Below, one piece after another: positions 2,637 to 14,224 of a stretch of DNA of 64,000 bases. The notes under the pieces are model-generated. The model worked only from the letters and a program-made list of their open reading frames with translations. It was not told the DNA's origin and did no database searches. This DNA comes from an uncultured Maricaulis sp. (GTDB lineage: Bacteria; Pseudomonadota; Alphaproteobacteria; Caulobacterales; Maricaulaceae). The stretch is from assembly GCF_947259345.1 (NCBI RefSeq), contig NZ_CAMYLS010000013.1, positions 62,001 to 126,000 of the forward strand. Reading direction: 5' to 3'. Position 1 is the stretch's first letter; the number at the start of each line of letters is the position of its first letter. Both the position numbers and the translations under genes were made by a program.

Positions 2637-4214
2637 ATGGCGCCAAGATCGATGGGGACAGCTGTGGATTACTCCAACGCACCACGCACGAATGGCCAAC
2701 AAATGCCGAAAGCCACCGGCCCGGCCAATGATACGTCAGACGCCCTGCGCCCGTCCAATCCAGACACGGCAAGCCTGACCCGCGCCCACATGAAGGCGGA
2801 TGCGCGCGCGCCGCGCCACCGCATCAATCGCAAGGCGCTGGGCCATGTCTGGCAAAGCCTTGATATCTTCGTCATCCTGATCCTGACTGTGACCGGTGCC
2901 TATGCCATGTCCGGCGGTGCTGTGACCGAAGTCGCCGCGGGCGAGCTCCTGCCCTTGCTGGCCTTCGCGGCCCTGTGCCCTGCCTTGGCCATGCTGATGC
3001 GCCTCTACAAGGTGGAGCCGCGCGAGACAGCGTCGGGGCGCTTGCTCCGGGCCCTGACCGCGACCGCCACAGCCGGGACCGTCATCACCGCCCTCGCCCA
3101 TGTCACGGCGCCGAATGTCATGCATCTCGTGGCAACTTTCGCCATCACAAGCGTCGGTGCCGTTACCCTGCTTCACGTCATCTATGCCGGCTTCATCCAG
3201 CACTGGGCCAAGGCCGGTCGTCTGGCCCGCAATGTCGTGCTGGTCGGCGCAACGCCCAATGCCAGCAAGCTGATCAAGGCCAATGCCGGTTCAGGCACCG
3301 TAAATGTTGTCGGCATCTTTGATGACCGCAAGGCCCGCAGCCCCCAGGCCCTCGCCGGTGCGCCCTATCTGGGCACGACGGATGATCTGCTCAGCTGGTC
3401 ACTTCTGCACGAGGTCGACCGCATCATCCTGACCGTGACACCCAAAGCCGAGGATCGTGTCCGCTTGCTTCTGACCAAGCTGCGCGCCCTGCCGCACACG
3501 GTGTGTCTCTTGCTGGATCTGGATTCCTTTGACCCGGCTGAAACCTCGCTGGACGACATTGTCGGAGTCCAGGCTGCCCGCATGAGCGGCGTCGAGGAGC
3601 GTTTCGGCCACTTGTTGGCCAAACGCCTGCAGGACATCTTATTCGGCCTTGGCCTCTTTCTGGCGACATTGCCCCTGATGATGCTGATTGGCTTGGCTGT
3701 GCGCCTTGACAGTCGCGGTCCGGTCCTGTTCCGGCAAGTCCGCGAAGGCTTTAATGGCCGCCCCATAAATGTGCTGAAATTCCGCACCATGCGCCACGAC
3801 CCGAACGCAGCCGACAAGCCGGTGCGTCAGGTCGAACTGGATGACCCGCGCGTCACGCGGATCGGCGGTTTCCTGCGCAAGACGAGTCTCGATGAATTGC
3901 CGCAATTGTGGAATGTCCTGACCGGCGACATGTCCCTCGTCGGCCCGCGTCCGCACGCACCCGGAATGCGAACCGGTGGCACAGAGACGGCCAATCTTGT
4001 CGCTGAATATGCCCACCGTCACCGCGTGAAGCCCGGAATAACCGGGTGGGCCCAGGTCAATGGCTCGCGCGGCCCCCTGCACTCGCCTGAGGCCGCCCGT
4101 GAGCGGATCGCGCTGGATGTTGCCTATATCGACAAATCCAATTTCTGGTTCGATATCTGGATCATGCTACGCACCCTGCCGGCACTGCTGGGCGACAAGA
4201 TCAATATTCGCTGA
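2637..4214 (+). CDS. hfsE: Polyprenyl-phosphate glycosyl-1-phosphate transferase (HfsE-like)
   Basis: This 525-aa inner-membrane protein should transfer a sugar-1-phosphate to undecaprenyl phosphate and so start repeat-unit synthesis. The N-terminal half has several TM helices and a CoA-binding-like Rossmann region (about 195-310, [13 protein letters not shown]). A further TM helix ([21 protein letters not shown]) precedes the C-terminal bacterial sugar transferase domain, which carries [31 protein letters not shown] and [15 protein letters not shown]. This is the PHPT architecture of WcaJ and Caulobacter HfsE/PssY/PssZ. The position at one end of a cluster with deacetylase, flippase, polymerase, Wza- and Wzc-like genes supports HfsE. 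The start is uncertain: the ATG at 2637 lacks a clear ribosome site, and in-frame ATG 2652 or GTG 2664 are alternatives that remove only part of a variable head. Confidence 0.85.
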
Positions 4215-4223
4215 GACCGAAAT

Positions 4224-5432
4224 CTACCGCCGCAGGAAGGGGACGGGCCGCGCGGCATTAGACGACCAGGCCCGTGACAGAGTGTCCAACAATGCCGATT
4301 GCGGATCCGGCTGGCGCGCACCAGCATCCCCTCCATAGAGCGGGTTAAACCGGTTCTCGGCATTCTCGTACACACGCCAGCCACTATCCCAACGGAATAC
4401 CGACCAGGCCGCGCCTTGGGCTTCTGCCGCTGCGATACGGCGGGCTAGATAACCCGCAGCGCCGGGCGCCCAACGTGACACGCCGAACTCGCCGAGCATC
4501 CAGGGTCCGGACATTGGTTGATCAAACTCAGCCAGGGACGGGTTGAATTCGATATCGGCACCCGCGCCCTGATGGGTGTAGTCGCGCGGCGAATAATCAT
4601 GAACGGCCAGGACCTGGCCTGACACGGCGTGGCGGTCAATCAGCCCGGCGAACGCCAGATTGGCATAACCATCCGGACTGACGAGAATTGGCGTCTCCGG
4701 ATCAACCGCCCGAACGGCCCGGCTCAGACGCCCACAGAGCGATGGCCAATCCGCGGGTGTCCCGGCTACCGCTTCGGCCAGGCGATCGGCGTCCCAGATA
4801 TCCAGATCATCGCCATCGGGTCCGCGCGCGGCCAGATTGGCGTTAGGCTCCACCATCAGGAGATACCCGGCCAGATTGGAATAATGCCTGAAATGGCGCG
4901 CCGTATGGGCCCACATCGCCTCCCAGCCATCTTGCGCCTCGCACGATTGCCAAACGCGTTCATTGATGTGGTCGGCCGGAAACCAGCTTCCGGCCTGGTC
5001 GCGATGAAACGTAAATTCGCTCCGGCCAGGCCCGGTCCGAAAGCCGATCACGACATAGAGGCCCTGACGTGCACACCGACGAATGATGGCATGCAAATGT
5101 TGCTCGATCGCCGGGTCGATCGCAAAGGGCGGCGCCTCGCCAGCCAGCCCGGGATGTGACAGCACGACCAGATTGGCGCCAAGACGTGCCAGGCGCGCCA
5201 GCGAGGCATCACTGACTGGTGCCCCCACAGATCCGCGTCCCAGAAATTCGGGCCCATCAATTTCAGGATAAACACGCCGCTGGGCGATGACGGCACCGCG
5301 CAAATGAACGCCAGTCGCATTGTCCCAGAGCTGCAGACGGTTTGGTCTGGCCTGGGACCAAACGCCGCCCGCCGGCGCCGCCATGGCAGCGGTCGCGGCC
5401 AGGAGGCCGTGGCGTCTCGTGACGCCGGTCAC
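4224..5432 (-). CDS. Tat-exported clan GH-A (GH5-like) glycoside hydrolase in holdfast cluster
   Basis: I place the start at a GTG (5430-5432) that overlaps the stop of the HfsK-like gene as GTGA, so the two are translationally coupled. The 402-aa product begins with a twin-arginine signal (TRRHGLLAATAAMAAPAGG). A TIM-barrel hydrolase follows. E195 in LLMVEPNAN and E315 in WMLGEFGVSR fit the acid/base and nucleophile glutamates, H278-Y280 in AVHDYSPRDY fits the conserved HxY, and W348 lies in VFRWDSG. The residue before E195 is Val, whereas GH5 normally has Asn-Glu there. Likely role is periplasmic cleavage or editing of the exopolysaccharide made by the surrounding genes. It is not among the hfs genes I know from Caulobacter. 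Function and linkage specificity are inferred. Confidence 0.75.
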   Translation of the reverse strand: MTGVTRRHGLLAATAAMAAPAGGVWSQARPNRLQLWDNATGVHLRGAVIAQRRVYPEIDGPEFLGRGSVGAPVSDASLARLARLGANLVVLSHPGLAGEAPPFAIDPAIEQHLHAIIRRCARQGLYVVIGFRTGPGRSEFTFHRDQAGSWFPADHINERVWQSCEAQDGWEAMWAHTARHFRHYSNLAGYLLMVEPNANLAARGPDGDDLDIWDADRLAEAVAGTPADWPSLCGRLSRAVRAVDPETPILVSPDGYANLAFAGLIDRHAVSGQVLAVHDYSPRDYTHQGAGADIEFNPSLAEFDQPMSGPWMLGEFGVSRWAPGAAGYLARRIAAAEAQGAAWSVFRWDSGWRVYENAENRFNPLYGGDAGARQPDPQSALLDTLSRAWSSNAARPVPFLRR

Positions 5433-6508
5433 AGCGCCTGGAAGCCGGTAACCCGGCCGAGTTTTCGAAGAACCTTGTCCGGCCAGTGCCTTGCCGGACC
5501 GAGCGGCGCGCGGGAACACGCCTCGGCCAAAGCCTGGCTTGACCGGGCCAGCCCTCCACGCAGGGATGGCGTCGTAAATCGACCGCTGACAAGGCCGGTC
5601 TGACTGCTCGACAAGTCCTTTTTGAAGCCATAATCGCCCGGGCCGAGCTCAACACCGAGATGACCGATGGCACCGGCTGTGCGCGCCATTTCCACAAGCA
5701 ATAAAACACCGGGGCTCAGGCGACTGTGATCCGGCTCGAAAGCGGGAAACCAATAGTGGCAAAGCCGGTCGCTTGCCATGCCGACATGGACAGCAATGAT
5801 CTGATCGCCGACGCGCAAGCTCGAGCTCACGCCGGAAAAATAATCGCCTTGGCGCCGGAGGACCGCCTTGAGCAAGCGTCCGGTCCACCTCACGGAAAAC
5901 ACATCGAAAACGCCCGTCCGGCGATACTGCGCGCGCTTCAGCCGAACCATCGCCTCAAAAACATCAGCCTGGTAATCGGCCATCACGAAACTGTGGCCGC
6001 CATCGATTTCCTCAAGCCGCCGGAGACGCGTCGCTATATTGCGCATTGCCTTGGGATTCATCGACTTGCGGTCCGCCTGCCAAGCCTCAAAACCCGCAGC
6101 CAGATCGATAACCCAGGAACCATCCGGCGCACCAGCGCCCTGCGCAAATCCACGCTGACTGGCCAGGGCACTGTGAAAGTCAAAAACCGGAATGCCGGCC
6201 TTGGCCAGCCAGGATGCGGGATCCGCTGCGCCGGGCTGCGGGGCAATGACCCCGTGCACATCACCCAGCGGGCCGGCAAGCGGCCGCGCAAAGCCAAGCC
6301 GTCCGGCCTGGAAAGGAAGAAAACCGACAACCGCGCCACGCTCGCGCACAACAAGGACGCGCGTATCATCGCGCGCCTCCTCGCAACACTCGGCGAATTC
6401 CAGCGCGAAATAGGGGCTGGCCAGCGTCGCTTCAGACGCCACGAAGGCACGCCAGGCCCCACGCTCCGCATCGGTCAACTCGCTCGGTTTTCGACAATCG
6501 ACCTGCAT
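5429..6508 (-). CDS. hfsK: GNAT/FemAB-type acyltransferase (HfsK-like)
   Basis: This 359-aa cytoplasmic protein has the CelD/BcsL-type GNAT fold. The N-terminal half has LVVRERGAVVGFLPFQ, and the C-terminal half has RLKRAQYRRTGVFDVF, IIAVHVGMASDRLCHYWFPAFEP, SPGVLLLVEMAR and ELGPGDYGFKKDL, typical of the FemAB-like acetyltransferase domain. In Caulobacter HfsK is an N-acetyltransferase that modifies holdfast polysaccharide and affects its cohesion; the same role is inferred here from fold and cluster. Start ATG 6508 is preceded by GGGAC; a TTG at 6517 in the same frame has a better-placed GGGGACAAGG and is an alternative. It is divergent from the flippase and shares a 4-nt stop/start overlap with the downstream hydrolase. 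Confidence 0.75.
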   Translation of the reverse strand: MQVDCRKPSELTDAERGAWRAFVASEATLASPYFALEFAECCEEARDDTRVLVVRERGAVVGFLPFQAGRLGFARPLAGPLGDVHGVIAPQPGAADPASWLAKAGIPVFDFHSALASQRGFAQGAGAPDGSWVIDLAAGFEAWQADRKSMNPKAMRNIATRLRRLEEIDGGHSFVMADYQADVFEAMVRLKRAQYRRTGVFDVFSVRWTGRLLKAVLRRQGDYFSGVSSSLRVGDQIIAVHVGMASDRLCHYWFPAFEPDHSRLSPGVLLLVEMARTAGAIGHLGVELGPGDYGFKKDLSSSQTGLVSGRFTTPSLRGGLARSSQALAEACSRAPLGPARHWPDKVLRKLGRVTGFQAL

Positions 6509-6641
6509 CGGTCCCAACCTTGTCCCCGTCAGGAATCCCAGATTAGGCGCAACGCCTTAGCAGGCGGTGAACGAATCCAACCTCGCCCGCAAAGCGGCAC
6601 CGCTCTTGCAAGCTTCCCCTCTCAGGCGAGCGGAGCGTTTC

Positions 6642-8093
6642 ATGCTTGGACGACACCTCCTGGGCTATCTGCCCGTGCAATTGGCGCAAGTCCTGGTCGG
6701 ATTTGGCAGTGTGGCCGTGTTCACGCGGATCATGCCGGCCGACGAATACGGACGTTATGCCATTGCGATTGCAGCGCTTTCCCTGACCCACATCGTGACA
6801 TTCACCTGGCTGGAAGCCGCGGTCGCACGCTTCCACGCGCGGGCCGAAACGCGCGGTCGACTGCGCGATCACCTGGCCACGGCCTACGGTCTCTATCTGG
6901 TCATCGCTGTTCTGGCGGGCGGCGCTCTTGTGCTGGGCGTGAACATTCTGCCGGTTGATCCGAAGCTGCAATCCGCGCTCGGCTTTGCGGTGGTCTCGCT
7001 CATTTTGCGCGCCCTCTTGCAAATCGGCCTCGAAACCCATCGCGCCGGCGGCGATGTGGGCCGCTATTCCGCGCTGGAGGCCGGGTATCTCATGGTGGGA
7101 TTCCTGGTTGGAATCGGCGTCATCCTGGCCACTGACCTCGGGGCGGCCGGCGTGTTCGTCGGAACGGCTGTCGCCGCACTGGTCATGCTGACCTTCGACC
7201 TGCCGGTGATGTTGCGACGCGCCGCGAAGGGCCGCCGCCAGCCCGTGCGGGCTGGCAGCTTTGCGCGCTACGGTGCTCCGCTCTCCATTTCCCTGATTTT
7301 CGAACACTTGCTCTCGGTCGGAGACCGTTTCCTGATCGCCGCCCTGATCTCCCAAGGCGCCGTTGGCATGTATGCCGCAGGGTATGGCCTCGCAGACCGG
7401 CTTCTGGACGTCATCTTCATCTGGTTTGGCGCCGCCGTCTGGCCACTCACCATCAAGGCCTTCGAGAAGGACGGCATTGCCGCGGCCCAGGCGATGGCGG
7501 GCCGCGCTGCGGGTCTGATGGGACTGATCTGCTTCCCTGCGGCCGCCGGTCTCGCCCTTGTCGCGGGACCGTTGACCACGCTGATCATCGGCGAGTCCGT
7601 TCGGGCCGAAGCGGCGACCATCCTGCCCTGGATTGCCCTGTCCGGCTTGATGAAAGGCATGATGACCTACTATTTCCACGAGGCCTTCACCCTGACCCGG
7701 AAAACCGGCGCCATGGCGACGATCATGGCGGTGTCCGCGGCTTTCAATCTCGGCCTCAACCTTCTGCTCATCCCGGTCTTTGGCATTGCCGGGGCAGCGA
7801 TGGCCACGGTTGTCGCCTACGCCCTCGCCCTGCTGGCCTGCGCCATGCTGGGACGCCGGCACTTCACCCTGCCCCTGCCCTGGGCGGACTGGATCAAGGC
7901 CGGTGCGGCGACGGCGGTCATGGCCGCGGCCGTCTTCGCCCTCCCTGACATTGGCACGGCCTGGATCGATCTGCTCACGCGCGCTGGAATTGGCGGCGTT
8001 GTTTACGTGATTTCAGCCTATTGCCTGGATATTGCCGGATGCCGGTCCTGGGCGCGTGAGGCTCGCCTCCTTTTTCGACCGGCGGGGGTGTGA
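6642..8093 (+). CDS. hfsF: Polysaccharide flippase, Wzx/PST type (HfsF-like)
   Basis: This 483-aa polytopic membrane protein has about 12-14 predicted TM helices in the MATE/PST arrangement. Features include FGSVAVFTRIMPADEYGRYAIAIA near the N-terminus, SISLIFEHLLSVGDRFLIAALI mid-protein and NLGLNLLLIPVFGIAGAAMATVVAY near the end. It should flip lipid-linked repeat units to the periplasmic face. I chose ATG 6642 because GGAG sits 6 nt upstream and the hydrophobic protein starts there; an upstream GTG at 6567 would add a 25-aa polar extension. The stop overlaps or abuts the next glycosyltransferase, so they form one operon running through 10724. Confidence 0.85.
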   Translation: MLGRHLLGYLPVQLAQVLVGFGSVAVFTRIMPADEYGRYAIAIAALSLTHIVTFTWLEAAVARFHARAETRGRLRDHLATAYGLYLVIAVLAGGALVLGVNILPVDPKLQSALGFAVVSLILRALLQIGLETHRAGGDVGRYSALEAGYLMVGFLVGIGVILATDLGAAGVFVGTAVAALVMLTFDLPVMLRRAAKGRRQPVRAGSFARYGAPLSISLIFEHLLSVGDRFLIAALISQGAVGMYAAGYGLADRLLDVIFIWFGAAVWPLTIKAFEKDGIAAAQAMAGRAAGLMGLICFPAAAGLALVAGPLTTLIIGESVRAEAATILPWIALSGLMKGMMTYYFHEAFTLTRKTGAMATIMAVSAAFNLGLNLLLIPVFGIAGAAMATVVAYALALLACAMLGRRHFTLPLPWADWIKAGAATAVMAAAVFALPDIGTAWIDLLTRAGIGGVVYVISAYCLDIAGCRSWAREARLLFRPAGV

Positions 8094-8095
8094 GT

Positions 8096-9040
8096 ATGAA
8101 TGCGATGACTGAAATCCCGATGCGTGAGCATGCGAATGCGGCCGGGCGCCTGGATCGCAATCCCGAGCTTTCCATCCTTATTCCCTTTTACAATGACGAT
8201 CCGCGGCCGCTCATCAACGCGCTCGACCGGCTCGCCATGCGCGCGGACGATTTGGAAATCGTGCTCTATGATGACGGCGAGCCGGACCCGGCGCTCAACC
8301 AGGCGATATGCACCCATATCGACCGGCTCGACCTGCCCGTACGCGTATTGACCAGCGTTCGTAATCGGGGTCGAGCGGCGGGACGAAACCTGCTCGCCAG
8401 AAGAGCACAAGCGGACTGGCTGCTCTATCTCGACGCCGACATGATCCCGAGCGATGACGCCTTCCTTGATCGCTATCGTCAAGCGCTAGGCGATGGCCGC
8501 GCGGACGCCCTCTTCGGCGGCTATATCACCGCAGACGCGGACCGGCCGGAGCAGGTACTCCATGCTGCCCTGTCGCGGACCAGTGATCATCATGACGCCG
8601 CCGCGCGCAACGCAATCGGCGCGACGGCCTTTTGTTCATCCAATGTGCTGGTCCGTGCGACCGTGATGCGGGCCTGCCCCTTTGATGAAGGCTTCAGCGG
8701 CTGGGGCTGGGAGGATGTCGATTGGGCGGTGACCGCCGCTGACCAATTCCGCCTGGTTCACATCGACAACCCGGCCCGGCATGGCGGCTTGCACGCCACC
8801 GATGAATTGCTCGCAAAGTTCAAAACAGGTGCCGCCAATTTCCGTCGGCTACTGGATCGCCATCCGGAATTGTCCGCCCTGCCCGGCGCCCGCGCCGCCC
8901 GCGCTCTGAAAGCGATGCCCGGACAGCACTGGCTGCGCGGGCTGTGGTCCTGGCTCAGTCGCAACCCGGCCTTGCCACTACGGCTGCGCACGGTGGCGAT
9001 CAAGCTTTGGCGCGCCAGCTGGACATCGGAGGTCTTGTAA
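8096..9040 (+). CDS. GT2 family glycosyltransferase (HfsG-like by position)
   Basis: This 314-aa cytoplasmic GT-A glycosyltransferase shows LSILIPFYNDDPRPL at the N-terminus, EIVLYDDGEPDP, RNRGRAAGRNLLA, the DxD-like LYLDADMIP and the acceptor/base motif GWGWEDVDWAV. It adds a sugar to the growing lipid-linked repeat. Its place between the flippase and the deacetylase matches Caulobacter hfsG (order E-F-G-H), but GT2 proteins are hard to assign without comparison, so I leave the symbol empty. ATG 8096 has GGGGG 6 nt upstream; GTG 8090, which overlaps the flippase stop, is an alternative. The stop TAA shares its last base with the next ATG (TAATG), indicating coupling. Confidence 0.8.
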   Translation: MNAMTEIPMREHANAAGRLDRNPELSILIPFYNDDPRPLINALDRLAMRADDLEIVLYDDGEPDPALNQAICTHIDRLDLPVRVLTSVRNRGRAAGRNLLARRAQADWLLYLDADMIPSDDAFLDRYRQALGDGRADALFGGYITADADRPEQVLHAALSRTSDHHDAAARNAIGATAFCSSNVLVRATVMRACPFDEGFSGWGWEDVDWAVTAADQFRLVHIDNPARHGGLHATDELLAKFKTGAANFRRLLDRHPELSALPGARAARALKAMPGQHWLRGLWSWLSRNPALPLRLRTVAIKLWRASWTSEVL

Positions 9041-9807
9041 TGAACGCCCCCTACATCCCCTCATCCGGCCTTTTCGCCGGTCTCAATCGGCGCTGGGCAC
9101 GCGTCGCCGCACGCAAGCCGCTGCAATTGCCGTCGGACCGCGCCATTGTCACCATCACATTCGACGACTTCCCCAAATCGGCGGCCACGACCGGTGCCGA
9201 AATACTCGAGCGTCATGGTTGGCGAGGCACCTATTATGCGTCGGGAGGCTATGCCGGCGGCGTCACGCATCACGGCGCGATGTTTGATTGCGGAGACTTG
9301 CAGCGCCTAGTCGCGGCTGGCCACGAAATCGCCTGCCACACCTACAGCCATCTCGACGCCAACCAGGTGGGTACCGGCGATTACCTCGCCGACATCGCTC
9401 GCAACGAACGCGCGCTCAAGGCCATGGGTCTGGAGACCGAGCTGGAAAGCTTCGCCTTCCCTTACGGCGAGGCAAGCCCCTCGACCAAGCGAGCCCTGTC
9501 CGAGCGATTCTCAAATCTGCGCGGCGTGCAAGCTGACATCAATCGCGGAGCGGCTGATCGCAACCTGCTGAAATCCGTACCGATCGACGGCGGCGAGTCG
9601 GGCATTGACCGCGCGGTCGAGGCCGCGGCAAGCCTGTCGCGCCACACCGGCTGGCTGATCTATTACGCTCATGATGTCCGGGAAGCGCCGACCGAGTGGG
9701 GTTGCACACCAGCCCAGCTGGAGCGCGTCTGCGCAGCCATCGCCAACAGCGGTGCCGAAGTCCTGACAATGTGCGAGGCGGTGCGCCAAATGGAGGCAAC
9801 AGCATGA
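9040..9807 (+). CDS. hfsH: Polysaccharide deacetylase, CE4 family (HfsH-like)
   Basis: This 255-aa NodB-domain protein removes N-acetyl groups from GlcNAc in the polysaccharide. Visible motifs are TITFDDFPKS (catalytic/metal Asp at about 42-43), HTYSHLD (metal histidines H100 and H104), FPYGEAS, and YYAHDV with the C-terminal catalytic His. No signal peptide is evident, in line with the cytoplasmic HfsH of Caulobacter, whose activity is needed for holdfast adhesion and cohesion. Length agrees with HfsH. The start overlaps the upstream stop by 1 nt (TAATG), and the stop overlaps the next gene as ATGA. Confidence 0.85.
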   Translation: MNAPYIPSSGLFAGLNRRWARVAARKPLQLPSDRAIVTITFDDFPKSAATTGAEILERHGWRGTYYASGGYAGGVTHHGAMFDCGDLQRLVAAGHEIACHTYSHLDANQVGTGDYLADIARNERALKAMGLETELESFAFPYGEASPSTKRALSERFSNLRGVQADINRGAADRNLLKSVPIDGGESGIDRAVEAAASLSRHTGWLIYYAHDVREAPTEWGCTPAQLERVCAAIANSGAEVLTMCEAVRQMEATA

Positions 9808-10724
9808 GCGTTTCCGTCATCCTGCCCACTTATCGCCGCCCGGACGGTCTCCGCAACGCGCTCTCCAGCCTGATGGCGCAGAGCCGCCAACCGGATGAGA
9901 TCATCGTCGTCGACAATGACCCGGACGGCTCCGCGCGCAACGGCGTGGCCAATGCCAGCGCCGTCGCGCGTTGCACCGTTCACTACATCCATGAGCCCCG
10001 TGCCGGGGTCGCCAACGCCCGCAATGCCGGTTGGGCCGCAGCTACAGGACGGTTCATCGCCTTCCTCGATGATGACGAGATCGCGTCGGCGGGCTGGCTG
10101 GAAGCACTCATGGCGAGTGCCGAGACCCTCGGCGCAACGGTCGTTTTCGGCCCCCTGCGCGGTGAAGCACTGGATGCGCCAAATGGCATGCGTGGCGCGC
10201 TGGCGCTCCGTCTCTATTCACGACCGGGCGACAAGACTGACCACACACTCGATGCGCCGTTCGGCTGCGGCAATTCCCTCGTCGATCGCGACGCCTTCAC
10301 CTTGCCGGATGCACCCTTCGATCCACGCATGAATATCAGCGGCGGCGAGGACGACCTTTTCTTTGCCGAGCTGGCCCGTCAGGGCGCCCGTTTTGGCTGG
10401 TCGGCCAAGGCCCACGCCATCGAGACCGTCGACGCCCGGCGGACAAGCTGGCGCTATCTGCTCGCGCGCAGCTTCGCCTTTGGTCAGGGCGCCACGCAAT
10501 CAGCCGCCAATGCCCGCCCACGACGCTGGATCGGAATTGCGTTCTGGATGGGTGTGGGCCTGGGCCAGATGTTGGCCTTTGGTACCGTCGCGGGACTGAC
10601 AAGCCTGGTCCATTCTCAAGCGGCGGCCCACTGGTTGGATCGTGCGGTTCAGGGCGCTGGAAAACTGTTCTGGATTGAAGCGTTCGAACCGCGCTTCTAC
10701 GGCGAAGCGGCCCCGGCGGACTGA
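9804..10724 (+). CDS. GT2 family glycosyltransferase with C-terminal membrane segment
   Basis: This 306-aa protein is a second GT2 enzyme of the cluster. Motifs: SVSVILPTYRRPDGLRNAL, EIIVVDNDPDG, NARNAGWAAATG, the DxD motif FLDDDEI, and GGEDDLFFAEL in place of the usual ED motif. A hydrophobic stretch at about 250-272 (WIGIAFWMGVGLGQMLAFG) could anchor it to the inner membrane. It starts with an ATGA overlap with the deacetylase stop, so it belongs to the same operon. Caulobacter has no gene at this position between hfsH and hfsC as far as I recall, so it may correspond to a glycosyltransferase encoded elsewhere there (HfsL or HfsJ) or add a different sugar. Confidence 0.8.
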   Translation: MSVSVILPTYRRPDGLRNALSSLMAQSRQPDEIIVVDNDPDGSARNGVANASAVARCTVHYIHEPRAGVANARNAGWAAATGRFIAFLDDDEIASAGWLEALMASAETLGATVVFGPLRGEALDAPNGMRGALALRLYSRPGDKTDHTLDAPFGCGNSLVDRDAFTLPDAPFDPRMNISGGEDDLFFAELARQGARFGWSAKAHAIETVDARRTSWRYLLARSFAFGQGATQSAANARPRRWIGIAFWMGVGLGQMLAFGTVAGLTSLVHSQAAAHWLDRAVQGAGKLFWIEAFEPRFYGEAAPAD

Positions 10725-10734
10725 GCGTCCGACG

Positions 10735-11997
10735 TCACTTTGCGCGTCGGTCGGCCAATTTGGCGGCCGTCGCGACCAGCAAGACCCAGCCAATCGCGTT
10801 TTGCTGCAGGAGATTGGACTCCGAAATGCTGACCAGGCCGAGCATGGCCAGGAAGGTCAATGTCCAATAGGTCTCCGGCCCAGCGAACAGGCGCGACAAG
10901 GCGCGAATGAGCGCTCGTCCAAAGACCAGCGCCATCATCATCACGCCTGGAATTCCGATCGCCAGCGCTGTCTCGATCCAGCCATTATGCGCCGTTGGAA
11001 CTGGCCAGTCCGTGCCCTGACGGACCCAGTAGACCGGTCCGGTCTCGTCCGCCCAAAAGGCCATATAGCCATAGCCGGTCCACGGAACTTCACCGACCTG
11101 GCGCGAGAGGATGCCCCAAATATCGGTCCGCCCCGTCAGCGTTGCGTCGCGGCCCAGGAGCTCAAGGAATTCCACCGGCGCAATGAGCAGGATGAGCGCC
11201 CCGGCAACACCGCCCGACAGGCCCAGAAACAGCATCAGGGAGGCAAACCCGAAACCGCGCCGGCATAGCGCGATCCCGATCGCACCGCCCGTTCCCAGGA
11301 GGAGTGCCAGCAAGGCTGTCTTTGACGTCGAAAGCAGAACCAGGGCGCAGCACAGCAAGGCACCACCCATCCATATCCAGCGCCGACGCGGATCCATGTG
11401 CAGCGCTGCAAAACAGGCCACGGCCCCCCAGGCCATCATGGCACCGAGCGTATTCTTCTCCCACCAGACGCCCTTCCACGCACCGGCATGGACTTCGTGA
11501 TCGACGCCGAGGGACGGCATGCCGATCGCCATCAGAGTGGAGAGTATCGCCAGACCGATAAAGGTCGCGGCAGTCAGTTGAATGAGTGCCCGCCAGGACC
11601 AGCGCGCCGCCATCCAGAATCCGAACAGGGTCGTCATGACCAGAGCAAAGGACCGGCGTAGCGTGGTGTCCGGCGCAATCGACCAGATCACCGAAACCGC
11701 CGTCAAGAGCACCAGGGCCAGCAGCAACCAATTGCCGGTCAGGATGCGCATCATCGCGCCCGGTCGGGTCACGGCGAGTGCAAGCGTTATGGCGTAGACA
11801 GGCAGCCATATCAGGCGCAGCACAACCGAACTGTCCGGATCGGCCGGATCAGCGAAGAGTGGCCCGATCAGGCCCTGGGAAAACAGGAAAAGGCAGAGCA
11901 GGGTCAACCCGCCCTCAATCACGCCGGTAAAACGGAAGGCCGGAGCCTGGCGCCAGACGGCCAGGAAGGCAGGATCGTGGCTGGCAGCGAGGCTCAT
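10735..11997 (-). CDS. hfsC: O-antigen polymerase/ligase-type membrane protein (HfsC-like)
   Basis: This 420-aa protein has about 10 TM helices and a large periplasmic loop typical of the Wzy_C superfamily. VWWEKNTLGAMMAWG, LLSTSKTALLALLLG, GRTDIWGILSR and TAHNGWIETALAIG are signature segments, including the conserved TGRTxIW and the loop His-Asn. It should polymerise repeat units in the periplasm. The ATG at 11997 overlaps the hfsB stop as ATGA. Downstream it converges with the glycosyltransferase at 10724 with only 10 nt between stops. Caulobacter HfsC and HfsI are redundant polymerases; only one such gene is visible here. Confidence 0.8.
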   Translation of the reverse strand: MSLAASHDPAFLAVWRQAPAFRFTGVIEGGLTLLCLFLFSQGLIGPLFADPADPDSSVVLRLIWLPVYAITLALAVTRPGAMMRILTGNWLLLALVLLTAVSVIWSIAPDTTLRRSFALVMTTLFGFWMAARWSWRALIQLTAATFIGLAILSTLMAIGMPSLGVDHEVHAGAWKGVWWEKNTLGAMMAWGAVACFAALHMDPRRRWIWMGGALLCCALVLLSTSKTALLALLLGTGGAIGIALCRRGFGFASLMLFLGLSGGVAGALILLIAPVEFLELLGRDATLTGRTDIWGILSRQVGEVPWTGYGYMAFWADETGPVYWVRQGTDWPVPTAHNGWIETALAIGIPGVMMMALVFGRALIRALSRLFAGPETYWTLTFLAMLGLVSISESNLLQQNAIGWVLLVATAAKLADRRAK

Positions 11998-12629
11998 GCC
12001 GCGCTCCGAACGCCGCTCCGCATCCGGTTGAGAATGAGGCCGGCGACCACGCCGCCACGCGCTTCGATGGCCGCGCGCCGGGCCTGGATACCATCGACAC
12101 GGCTGAGCCGGGAATCGGCGACGAGAATCACACCATCCGCATCCTCGACCAGCGAGAGCGGAGCCCGCGAACTCCCTGGCGCATCGATGACAGCCAGGTC
12201 AACGGAGCCTCGCACGGCAGCCCAATAGTCCGGCGCAGCACGAAGCGTGGCCTGCCGCACGGCGCCCGGACGGGCCTGCAACGCGGTGACAAAAAGATTG
12301 GGAACAGCCGACTGTCTCGCAATGATACGAGCCTTCTCGCCATCCTGCGTGCTCAGGGACCAGAAGGGCTCACGCCCGAAGCCGGCATCAAAGGCCTGCC
12401 CCTGAACGCGCGCCGCCTCAGCCTGGGCATTGGCGTTGAAATCGAGATCGTAAAGCCAGACGCCGCGTGTGGACCGCCGGGCCGCCAGACGCGCCAATTC
12501 GCGTGCCACGGTCGACGCCCCGGCGCCGCGGCTGGCCCCCATCACCATGAGGACACGCCCCTGCCCGCCCGGACGGGCGATTGGTTCAAGCTCGTCGATG
12601 AGCTGGGAAAGGTCCGCGGTGAGGTTCAT
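11994..12629 (-). CDS. hfsB: BY-kinase-like ATPase homolog lacking the P-loop lysine (HfsB-like)
   Basis: This 211-aa protein has the MinD/BY-kinase fold. The Walker A region is VMGASRGAGAST (about residues 30-40): the lysine expected before Ser/Thr (GKST) is Ala38. The Walker A' region is WLYDLDFN (D61, D63), and VDLAVIDAPG (about 162-171) is Walker B-like. There is no C-terminal tyrosine cluster. Alphaproteobacterial HfsA/HfsB split the Wzc polypeptide into a chain-length part and a kinase-like part. Without the lysine and tyrosines this copy probably does not act as a classical tyrosine autokinase; a scaffold or weak ATP-binding role is inferred. It is coupled to hfsC and lies 65 nt downstream of hfsA. 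Confidence 0.75.
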   Translation of the reverse strand: MNLTADLSQLIDELEPIARPGGQGRVLMVMGASRGAGASTVARELARLAARRSTRGVWLYDLDFNANAQAEAARVQGQAFDAGFGREPFWSLSTQDGEKARIIARQSAVPNLFVTALQARPGAVRQATLRAAPDYWAAVRGSVDLAVIDAPGSSRAPLSLVEDADGVILVADSRLSRVDGIQARRAAIEARGGVVAGLILNRMRSGVRSAA

Positions 12630-12694
12630 GTGACGACAACGCCCTGAGCGATTCGGTTCGTCACAGAATGCGAGAAACGAGGTTAACGACGCGC

Positions 12695-14224
12695 TTACAC
12701 AGAGCGGTCGGCGACATGCGCAAGGACGGGCAGACCGTCGAACGGATCATTGGCGGCCACCGGGTGGCCGGGAGCCGGCTGCGTCGCGACCGCTGACGCC
12801 GACGCGACGGGTCGCGGTCGCGGCAAGGCGACTGCGCGGACATAGGTCAGCCAGTAGCCGCGAAGCAGTCCGAGGAAAAGCGCGATACCGGCCGCGGCCA
12901 CAAAGGCCCCGATCAGGCCCAGCTTCTTCATCGACTGCCCCTCCATCGGCGGCGAAGCGCGATCAATCAGGCGCACCGCATCGGCGGCGCCCAGGCTGGG
13001 TGAGCGACGTGCCGAGGCTGTCGCCTCCAGACCGGCAACCGCCGCGGCCGCTTCTTCTGCGGCGGTGACGTTTTGAGCCAGGCGCGTATATTCGGGCTCA
13101 AGCTGACGGAGACGGCTGATCAAGGCCCGGTTGGCGCGTGCCTGTTGCTCCAGCGCCGTGGCGAGCGAGGCCTGGGCCTCGGCGTTGGCCTCACGGGTGG
13201 CGAGCTCCGATTCCAGGGCCTGGCGAACCGGATTGGCTCCCGTGCGCCGTTGCCCTTCGCCTTCCGCGGCACCGGAGGCTATGAAGCTCTCGATTGCCGC
13301 GATTTCACGCTCTACGGCCTGGACTGCCGGCGCTGCCGGTTGATAGCGCGACAGCAGACTGGCGCGTTCGGCCCGCCGGTCCAGCAGGACACCTGACACG
13401 CCATTCTCCACATAAAGCTCGATACTTTCCGGGATTTGCGTCAGCCGTTCCCGCAGCGCCGACGCCCCGGCCAGTGCCATGTCACGTTCGCCACGGGCCT
13501 GGCTGATCCGCTCGGTCAGATTGCCGACCAGATTTTCCGCCGTGCCGCGCTCTGCTTCGAAATTGGCAATTTCATTGGCCAGAAGAAAGCTTTCCAGCTC
13601 GCCGCGGGCAGTGCGAACCGCCGTATCGGCCTGCTCTCGGCGGACTTCCAGGCCGGAAAAACCGGTCTCGAAGAGAACCTGCTCGCGATAGGCCAGATAG
13701 GCGTCGACAATCGTATTGAGGATCAGCGCCGAGCGTTCGGCCGAGCGCGACTTGAAACTGGCATTGATGGCCGAGGAATTGGGCTCGCGAGACAATTCGA
13801 AGCCGGCCCGCAATTCGCGCAGGGCAATTCCGTCCGCATTCAATCCGGCCGCCTCACCCAGCACGACATCCGCACCCAGTGTCTCCAGCGCCAGGCGGCG
13901 GACTGCATCCGAACTCAACAATTCGCTTTCCGACTGCATGACCTGATCGAGCATGAAAGCATCGCCAACACCGGCCGCTGTTGGCGTGGGATTCGAATCG
14001 AGCAGGACGAGAAGCCGTGTCTCGGCCGTATAGCTGGGCTGGAGAAGGATCAGGGACGCGGCCACGCCAACCGCGAAAATCACCGCAAAAATCAAGGCGA
14101 TAAAGCCCTTCTGCGACCAGGCCAGAGCGATCACGTCGAACAGGTCGAGCTCCCGCCGGGGAGCGTCAACTGTCCCGACAGCTCCAGCCTGGGCGGAGCC
14201 TGTATCGTGATATGCGCGCGTCAT
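12695..14224 (-). CDS. hfsA: Wzz/GNVR-domain polysaccharide co-polymerase (HfsA-like)
   Basis: This 509-aa inner-membrane protein has a first TM helix at about 38-58 (FIALIFAVIFAVGVAASLIL) and a second near 437-457 (LGLIGAFVAAAGIALFLGLL), with a long periplasmic part between. The periplasmic part starts with the Wzz fold (LLVLLDSNPTP...), continues with coiled coil (about 180-360) and ends with a GNVR-like LRQLEPEYTRLAQN. The cytoplasmic tail of about 50 residues is proline-rich and carries no kinase domain. It should control chain length and connect with the Wza-like HfsD for export. The ATG at 14224 is divergent from hfsD across 88 nt. Confidence 0.85.
   Translation of the reverse strand: MTRAYHDTGSAQAGAVGTVDAPRRELDLFDVIALAWSQKGFIALIFAVIFAVGVAASLILLQPSYTAETRLLVLLDSNPTPTAAGVGDAFMLDQVMQSESELLSSDAVRRLALETLGADVVLGEAAGLNADGIALRELRAGFELSREPNSSAINASFKSRSAERSALILNTIVDAYLAYREQVLFETGFSGLEVRREQADTAVRTARGELESFLLANEIANFEAERGTAENLVGNLTERISQARGERDMALAGASALRERLTQIPESIELYVENGVSGVLLDRRAERASLLSRYQPAAPAVQAVEREIAAIESFIASGAAEGEGQRRTGANPVRQALESELATREANAEAQASLATALEQQARANRALISRLRQLEPEYTRLAQNVTAAEEAAAAVAGLEATASARRSPSLGAADAVRLIDRASPPMEGQSMKKLGLIGAFVAAAGIALFLGLLRGYWLTYVRAVALPRPRPVASASAVATQPAPGHPVAANDPFDGLPVLAHVADRSV

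Follow-up and report, generated by a model that had tools for sequence, protein, structure and literature searches.

The window, by which we mean the whole stretch of 64,000 nucleotides analysed here, carries a cluster of holdfast (hfs) genes from an uncultured Maricaulis sp., and embedded in this cluster lies a gene for an hfs-associated GH5-like hydrolase of 402 amino acids (4224..5432, minus strand, GTG start) that belongs to a clade of 46 full-length proteins. It converges with the gene for the initiating glycosylphosphotransferase HfsE (2637..4214, plus strand; NF050817 below cut-off, PF02397), and upstream it is overlapped by the gene for an HfsK-like GNAT acyltransferase (5429..6517 with the start as listed, minus strand; PF13480, E 6e-31). 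The gene for the flippase HfsF, the constant partner of the hydrolase, is divergent (6567..8093, plus strand; NF050818 at 425.8 bits against a curated cut-off of 700) and is followed on the same strand by those for the glycosyltransferase HfsG (8090..9040; NF050819 below cut-off) and the deacetylase HfsH (8944..9807, the listed start probably lying too far upstream; NF050820 below cut-off, PF01522). The remainder of the cluster (9696..14224) encodes a GT2 protein, a Wzy polymerase, a CpsD-like ATPase and Wzz, assigned from profile matches and neighbourhood comparison. The NCBIfam Hfs matches in the window are strong yet stay under their curated cut-offs, and a sigma-70 promoter scan of the gap between HfsK and HfsF found nothing.

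Translation of the window bears out the 402-residue reading frame of the initial annotation together with its overlap on the stop of the hfsK-like gene, since the GTG start (5432-5430) and the TGA stop (5431-5429) share the four bases GTGA (5429..5432, minus strand). The same 4-base overlap, ATGA or GTGA, is kept in 28 of the 32 other loci of relatives that have a co-oriented hfsK, which supports the GTG start; the remaining four junctions measure -1, -1, +1 and +3. The gene is under purifying selection (dN/dS = 0.08-0.23, six pairs), and close homologues, at 72-85% identity, come from Maricaulis MAGs and from M. maris DSM 4734 (in locus L004). A chance open reading frame was rejected on the strength of this dN/dS, the 46 relatives, a PF00150 match above cut-off and the invariant residues described below.

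The N-terminal signal region comprises residues 1-28 (MTGVTRRHGLLAATAAM...; 5349..5432, minus strand; assigned from the sequence with a predicted cleavage site) and includes the twin arginine R6-R7 (5412-5417, minus strand) within the motif TRRHGLL (residues 5-11). The Tat-type signal first noted for this protein is thus present, and it is general in the clade: 45 of the 46 members have RR within their first 32 residues, the exception being G537, with an N-terminus devoid of RR. In the genus g38 (family f2), eight of the nine aligned members (L120-L122, L124-L127, L129) have a strict lipobox (LAAC, LASC or LVAC) after their Tat motif, which suggests that these are Tat-exported lipoproteins that would be membrane-tethered.

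Homology to clan GH-A and GH5, likewise proposed at the outset, is supported by a PF00150 match of 36.7 bits (cut-off 23.5) and by the position of both glutamates in the acid/base and nucleophile columns; the profile also picks up 28 of 35 relatives at E <= 0.1. Among solved structures the best hits are to GH5 endoglucanases (8b3y, E 2.6e-9; with a profile, E 2.1e-22). The endoglucanases 8b3y/8ag9/8anx, 3amc and Endoglucanase H (7vt5) have the PF00150 similarity in common with the window hydrolase, and their acid/base and nucleophile glutamates, HxYxP..THQ and the beta-8 aromatic region align with it. Entry 8anx has Ala at the aligned acid/base position, where its relatives have Glu, and looks like an inactivating mutant. 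In contrast to these enzymes the hydrolase clade is devoid of the Arg of beta-2, the His of beta-3 and the Asn of beta-4, and it has features of its own in the motifs RxGPGRSxF and LRGAVxxQRR and in the adjoining flippase gene. An AlphaFold2 model built from four sequences (the window and L002-L004) was of low confidence, with a pLDDT of 42 and a pTM of 0.46.

For the comparison of catalytic residues, the 46 full-length clade members were aligned together with 16 ordinary GH5 proteins, one of which (L143) is itself divergent. The residues picked out by the initial annotation, R6-R7, V194 before E195, E315 and H278-x-Y280, all stand where it placed them. E195 in the acid/base column on beta-4 and E315 in the nucleophile column on beta-7 (4488..4490, minus strand) are invariant in the clade (46/46), as are H278 and Y280 of the His-x-Tyr motif on beta-6 (H278-D-Y280, 4593..4601, minus strand), which are equally invariant in the 16 ordinary GH5 proteins; P282 is also kept, as in ordinary GH5. 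An hhalign comparison with the canonical GH5 of genome G031 gave the same residue register (probability 96.8). The replacement of Asn by Val before the acid/base glutamate (V194-E195, 4848..4853, minus strand) is real; it is a trait of the family and belongs to a set of three changes that the whole clade shows at the catalytic site. The position is occupied by V in 34 members, D in eight, E in three and S in one, as against Asn in 16/16 ordinary GH5 proteins; the column of the beta-2 Arg (R in 16/16) holds mostly V, S, I, L or M; and the column of the beta-3 His (H in 15/16) holds R132 in all 46 members. R132 opens the clade signature R132-x-GPGRS-x-F140 (5013..5039, minus strand), and further residues invariant across the 46 members are R45, R52, N87, S92, R132, G134, P135, R137, S138 and F140. 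In GH5 enzymes the Asn makes contact with the 2-OH of the -1 sugar, in a pocket that is also lined by the Arg and His. As all three altered positions lie at this pocket, the -1 subsite of the clade has probably been rebuilt, and the changes suggest recognition of a holdfast-specific sugar rather than a plain beta-glucan.

The hydrolase gene occurs in 36 of 137 family genomes, 35 times at full length and once cut by a contig end (G030); seven further family hits are weak matches to ordinary GH5 and are not among the 36. By comparison, 125 of the 137 have HfsF and 122 have HfsH. Across the order a wide gap in profile scores separates clade members (E < 1e-80, the G030 fragment apart) from ordinary GH5 proteins (E > 1e-17). 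Outside the family, the gene occurs in ten genomes of g38, in one of genus g44 (G275) and in G537 elsewhere in the class; the class search sampled 385 genomes and so may miss rarer members. A maximum-likelihood tree separates the 46 full-length proteins, which have a mean identity of 45%, from ordinary GH5 by a single branch (99/72; recovered in 98% of bootstrap trees). Mapping presence of the gene on the HfsF tree needs at least six changes, which implies that it was lost (or moved) repeatedly. No remnants of the gene were seen in hfs clusters that lack it, except for the canonical GH5 of L076, and neither the viral contigs nor the plasmids searched yielded a relative. The hydrolase is an optional module; it is absent from most HfsF-bearing family genomes and has several losses behind it, so that holdfast synthesis can do without it.

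Absence of the gene from related hfs clusters had been named as evidence against a dedicated holdfast role; the gene instead holds a conserved place in these clusters. The gene order of the family is HfsE forward, hydrolase and HfsK both reverse, then HfsF, HfsG and HfsH forward, with HfsE undetected nearby in several loci of other genera. The hydrolase gene adjoins HfsF in 46 of 47 testable genomes (G069, where the contig ends, was left out of this count). The lone exception is G275 (L128), in which it stands beside a ferrochelatase gene and a standard HfsE-F-G-H cluster lies elsewhere in the genome. The initial annotation tied the hydrolase to HfsK, but the constant partner is HfsF. In the Maricaulis clusters L056 and L059 no hfsK was detected and the hydrolase gene is directly beside HfsF. 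Given these two clusters and the members outside the family without a neighbouring hfsK, HfsF and not HfsK is the fixed partner, and the idea that the main link is to hfsK was rejected (L056, L059, g38, G537).

The hydrolase/HfsF pair of the ten g38 genomes is found away from the hfs cluster, with unrelated neighbours such as ftsY in L121. The hfs clusters of five of these genomes (L132-L135, L137) read HfsE-HfsG-HfsH-Wzy-CpsD-Wzz without HfsF, and a search for the HfsF family in g38 located a single HfsF in each genome, next to the hydrolase. G427 has a partial HfsF beside the hydrolase gene (L154), and G537 has a cluster of HfsG, HfsH and Wzy in which the hydrolase gene adjoins HfsF. The linkage occurs in no fewer than two distinct genomic settings. 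Distances between hydrolases and between HfsF proteins are strongly correlated (Mantel r 0.96, 40 pairs, 0/1000 permutations as high), and the 46 cases of linkage are not independent, since the adjacency of two genes is partly inherited. The kinship with endoglucanases such as 8b3y, and the abundance of ordinary GH5 genes in the order, would fit an ordinary secreted, cellulase-like feeding enzyme that came to lie in the cluster by chance. We consider this very improbable: the proteins form a clade of their own with altered catalytic positions, and the gene stays beside HfsF even where HfsF has left the hfs cluster.

Linkage to the flippase, and not to polymerase or export genes, would also suit an enzyme whose substrate is the lipid-linked oligosaccharide that HfsF flips. 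It might serve in carrier recycling or quality control instead of acting on the polymer, with R132 and R137 contacting pyrophosphate or an acidic sugar. The g38 pair without the rest of hfs and the invariance of both arginines are consistent with this, but the roles given to the arginines are guesswork, and we hold the idea to be improbable, if clearly less so than a feeding enzyme.

Two genomes without the clade gene have a canonical GH5 in a comparable setting. In G081 (L049 7826-10389) a displaced HfsF is divergent from a canonical GH5 that has all canonical residues (PF00150 156 bits) and lies between the genes for chorismate synthase and a methyltransferase; in the hfs cluster of this genome (L152) HfsK is followed by HfsG with no HfsF between, HfsF being about 339 kb away. 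In G031 (L076 about 3051-4142) a canonical GH5 stands directly downstream of HfsE in the hfs cluster. That canonical GH5 proteins take this place argues for an enzymatic role in the hfs setting. It also bears on whether the clade has lost its activity: since the whole clade has exchanged three usual GH5 catalytic positions and gained an invariant Arg-rich loop, the barrel could be a pseudo-enzyme that binds the holdfast glycan or its precursor for modification by HfsK or HfsH, or for export, without cutting. Against this, both catalytic glutamates and the HxY motif are invariant in 46 diverged members, and we think a pseudo-enzyme unlikely, although somewhat less so than a dedicated lipid-linked substrate.

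We favour the reading, at a rough probability of 0.6, that the hydrolase serves holdfast biosynthesis as a glycosidase in the periplasm, probably an active one, and works like PslG. Its place at periplasmic holdfast processing is proposed by analogy with glycosidases of exopolysaccharide clusters, and the pathway step and substrate given below are putative. The Tat-type signal would direct the protein to the periplasm; it would be made together with the HfsK-like acyltransferase where hfsK is present, and inherited with HfsF. A retaining GH-A mechanism is most likely, with E195 as acid/base and E315 as nucleophile. The role assigned to HfsF is that of flipping the lipid-linked repeat unit, which HfsC then polymerises (PMC6372794); glucose, mannose, xylose and GlcNAc occur in the holdfast (PMC8449245). 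Once HfsF has flipped the lipid-linked repeat, the hydrolase would cut an endo-bond in the holdfast glycan, and this cut may trim or clear nascent or periplasmic polymer or set chain length, roles comparable to those of PslG and AlgL in other exopolysaccharide systems. Trimming, release and binding, the roles first proposed, are all conjectural.

Glycosidases are often encoded in exopolysaccharide clusters, BcsZ being one hydrolase that is co-encoded with its glycan. PelA, PgaB and AlgL are likewise hydrolases or lyases co-encoded with the glycan that they process, but they belong to unrelated families and act on other glycans. The closest parallel in our proposal, PslG of Pseudomonas aeruginosa (GH39, clan GH-A), is an endo-beta-glucosidase that uses the two-Glu mechanism and is encoded within the psl exopolysaccharide synthesis cluster (PMC11912335); it is found at the inner membrane and in the periplasm, with an activity that matters for Psl (PMC9075953). 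PslG differs from the hydrolase in belonging to another family, GH39, and in acting on Psl and not on holdfast. We know of no linkage of PslG to a flippase gene. Biosynthetic glycosidases are already known from exopolysaccharide clusters; the holdfast setting, the flippase linkage and the altered catalytic site set this one apart. Orthologues of hfsK have been described beside hfs genes in Maricaulis maris, Oceanicaulis alexandrii and Woodsholea maritima (Sprecher 2017, PMC5362036), in a paper whose main text does not contain the word 'hydrolase', and the open-access holdfast literature searched reports no hydrolase in the hfs gene set or cluster.

A more specific version is tentative: the clade may be a dedicated HfsF partner, a glycosidase of divergent GH5-like type that recognises, through a reshaped -1 subsite, a repeat that is holdfast-specific or lipid-linked. 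It would move with HfsF and give way to a canonical GH5 in some lineages. If true, holdfast synthesis of the Wzx/Wzy type would have an optional step not described before, that of a flippase-coupled hydrolase. Canonical enzymes and altered ones share this setting and offer a natural comparison of GH-A active-site retuning, and a hydrolase that follows the flippase would let holdfast workers cut or size an adhesive of poorly known structure. Being inherited beside the holdfast flippase gene, the hydrolase gene is probably an undescribed part of building or trimming the holdfast in some stalked marine bacteria, and as an optional gene it may explain differences between species in holdfast size, shedding or cohesion.
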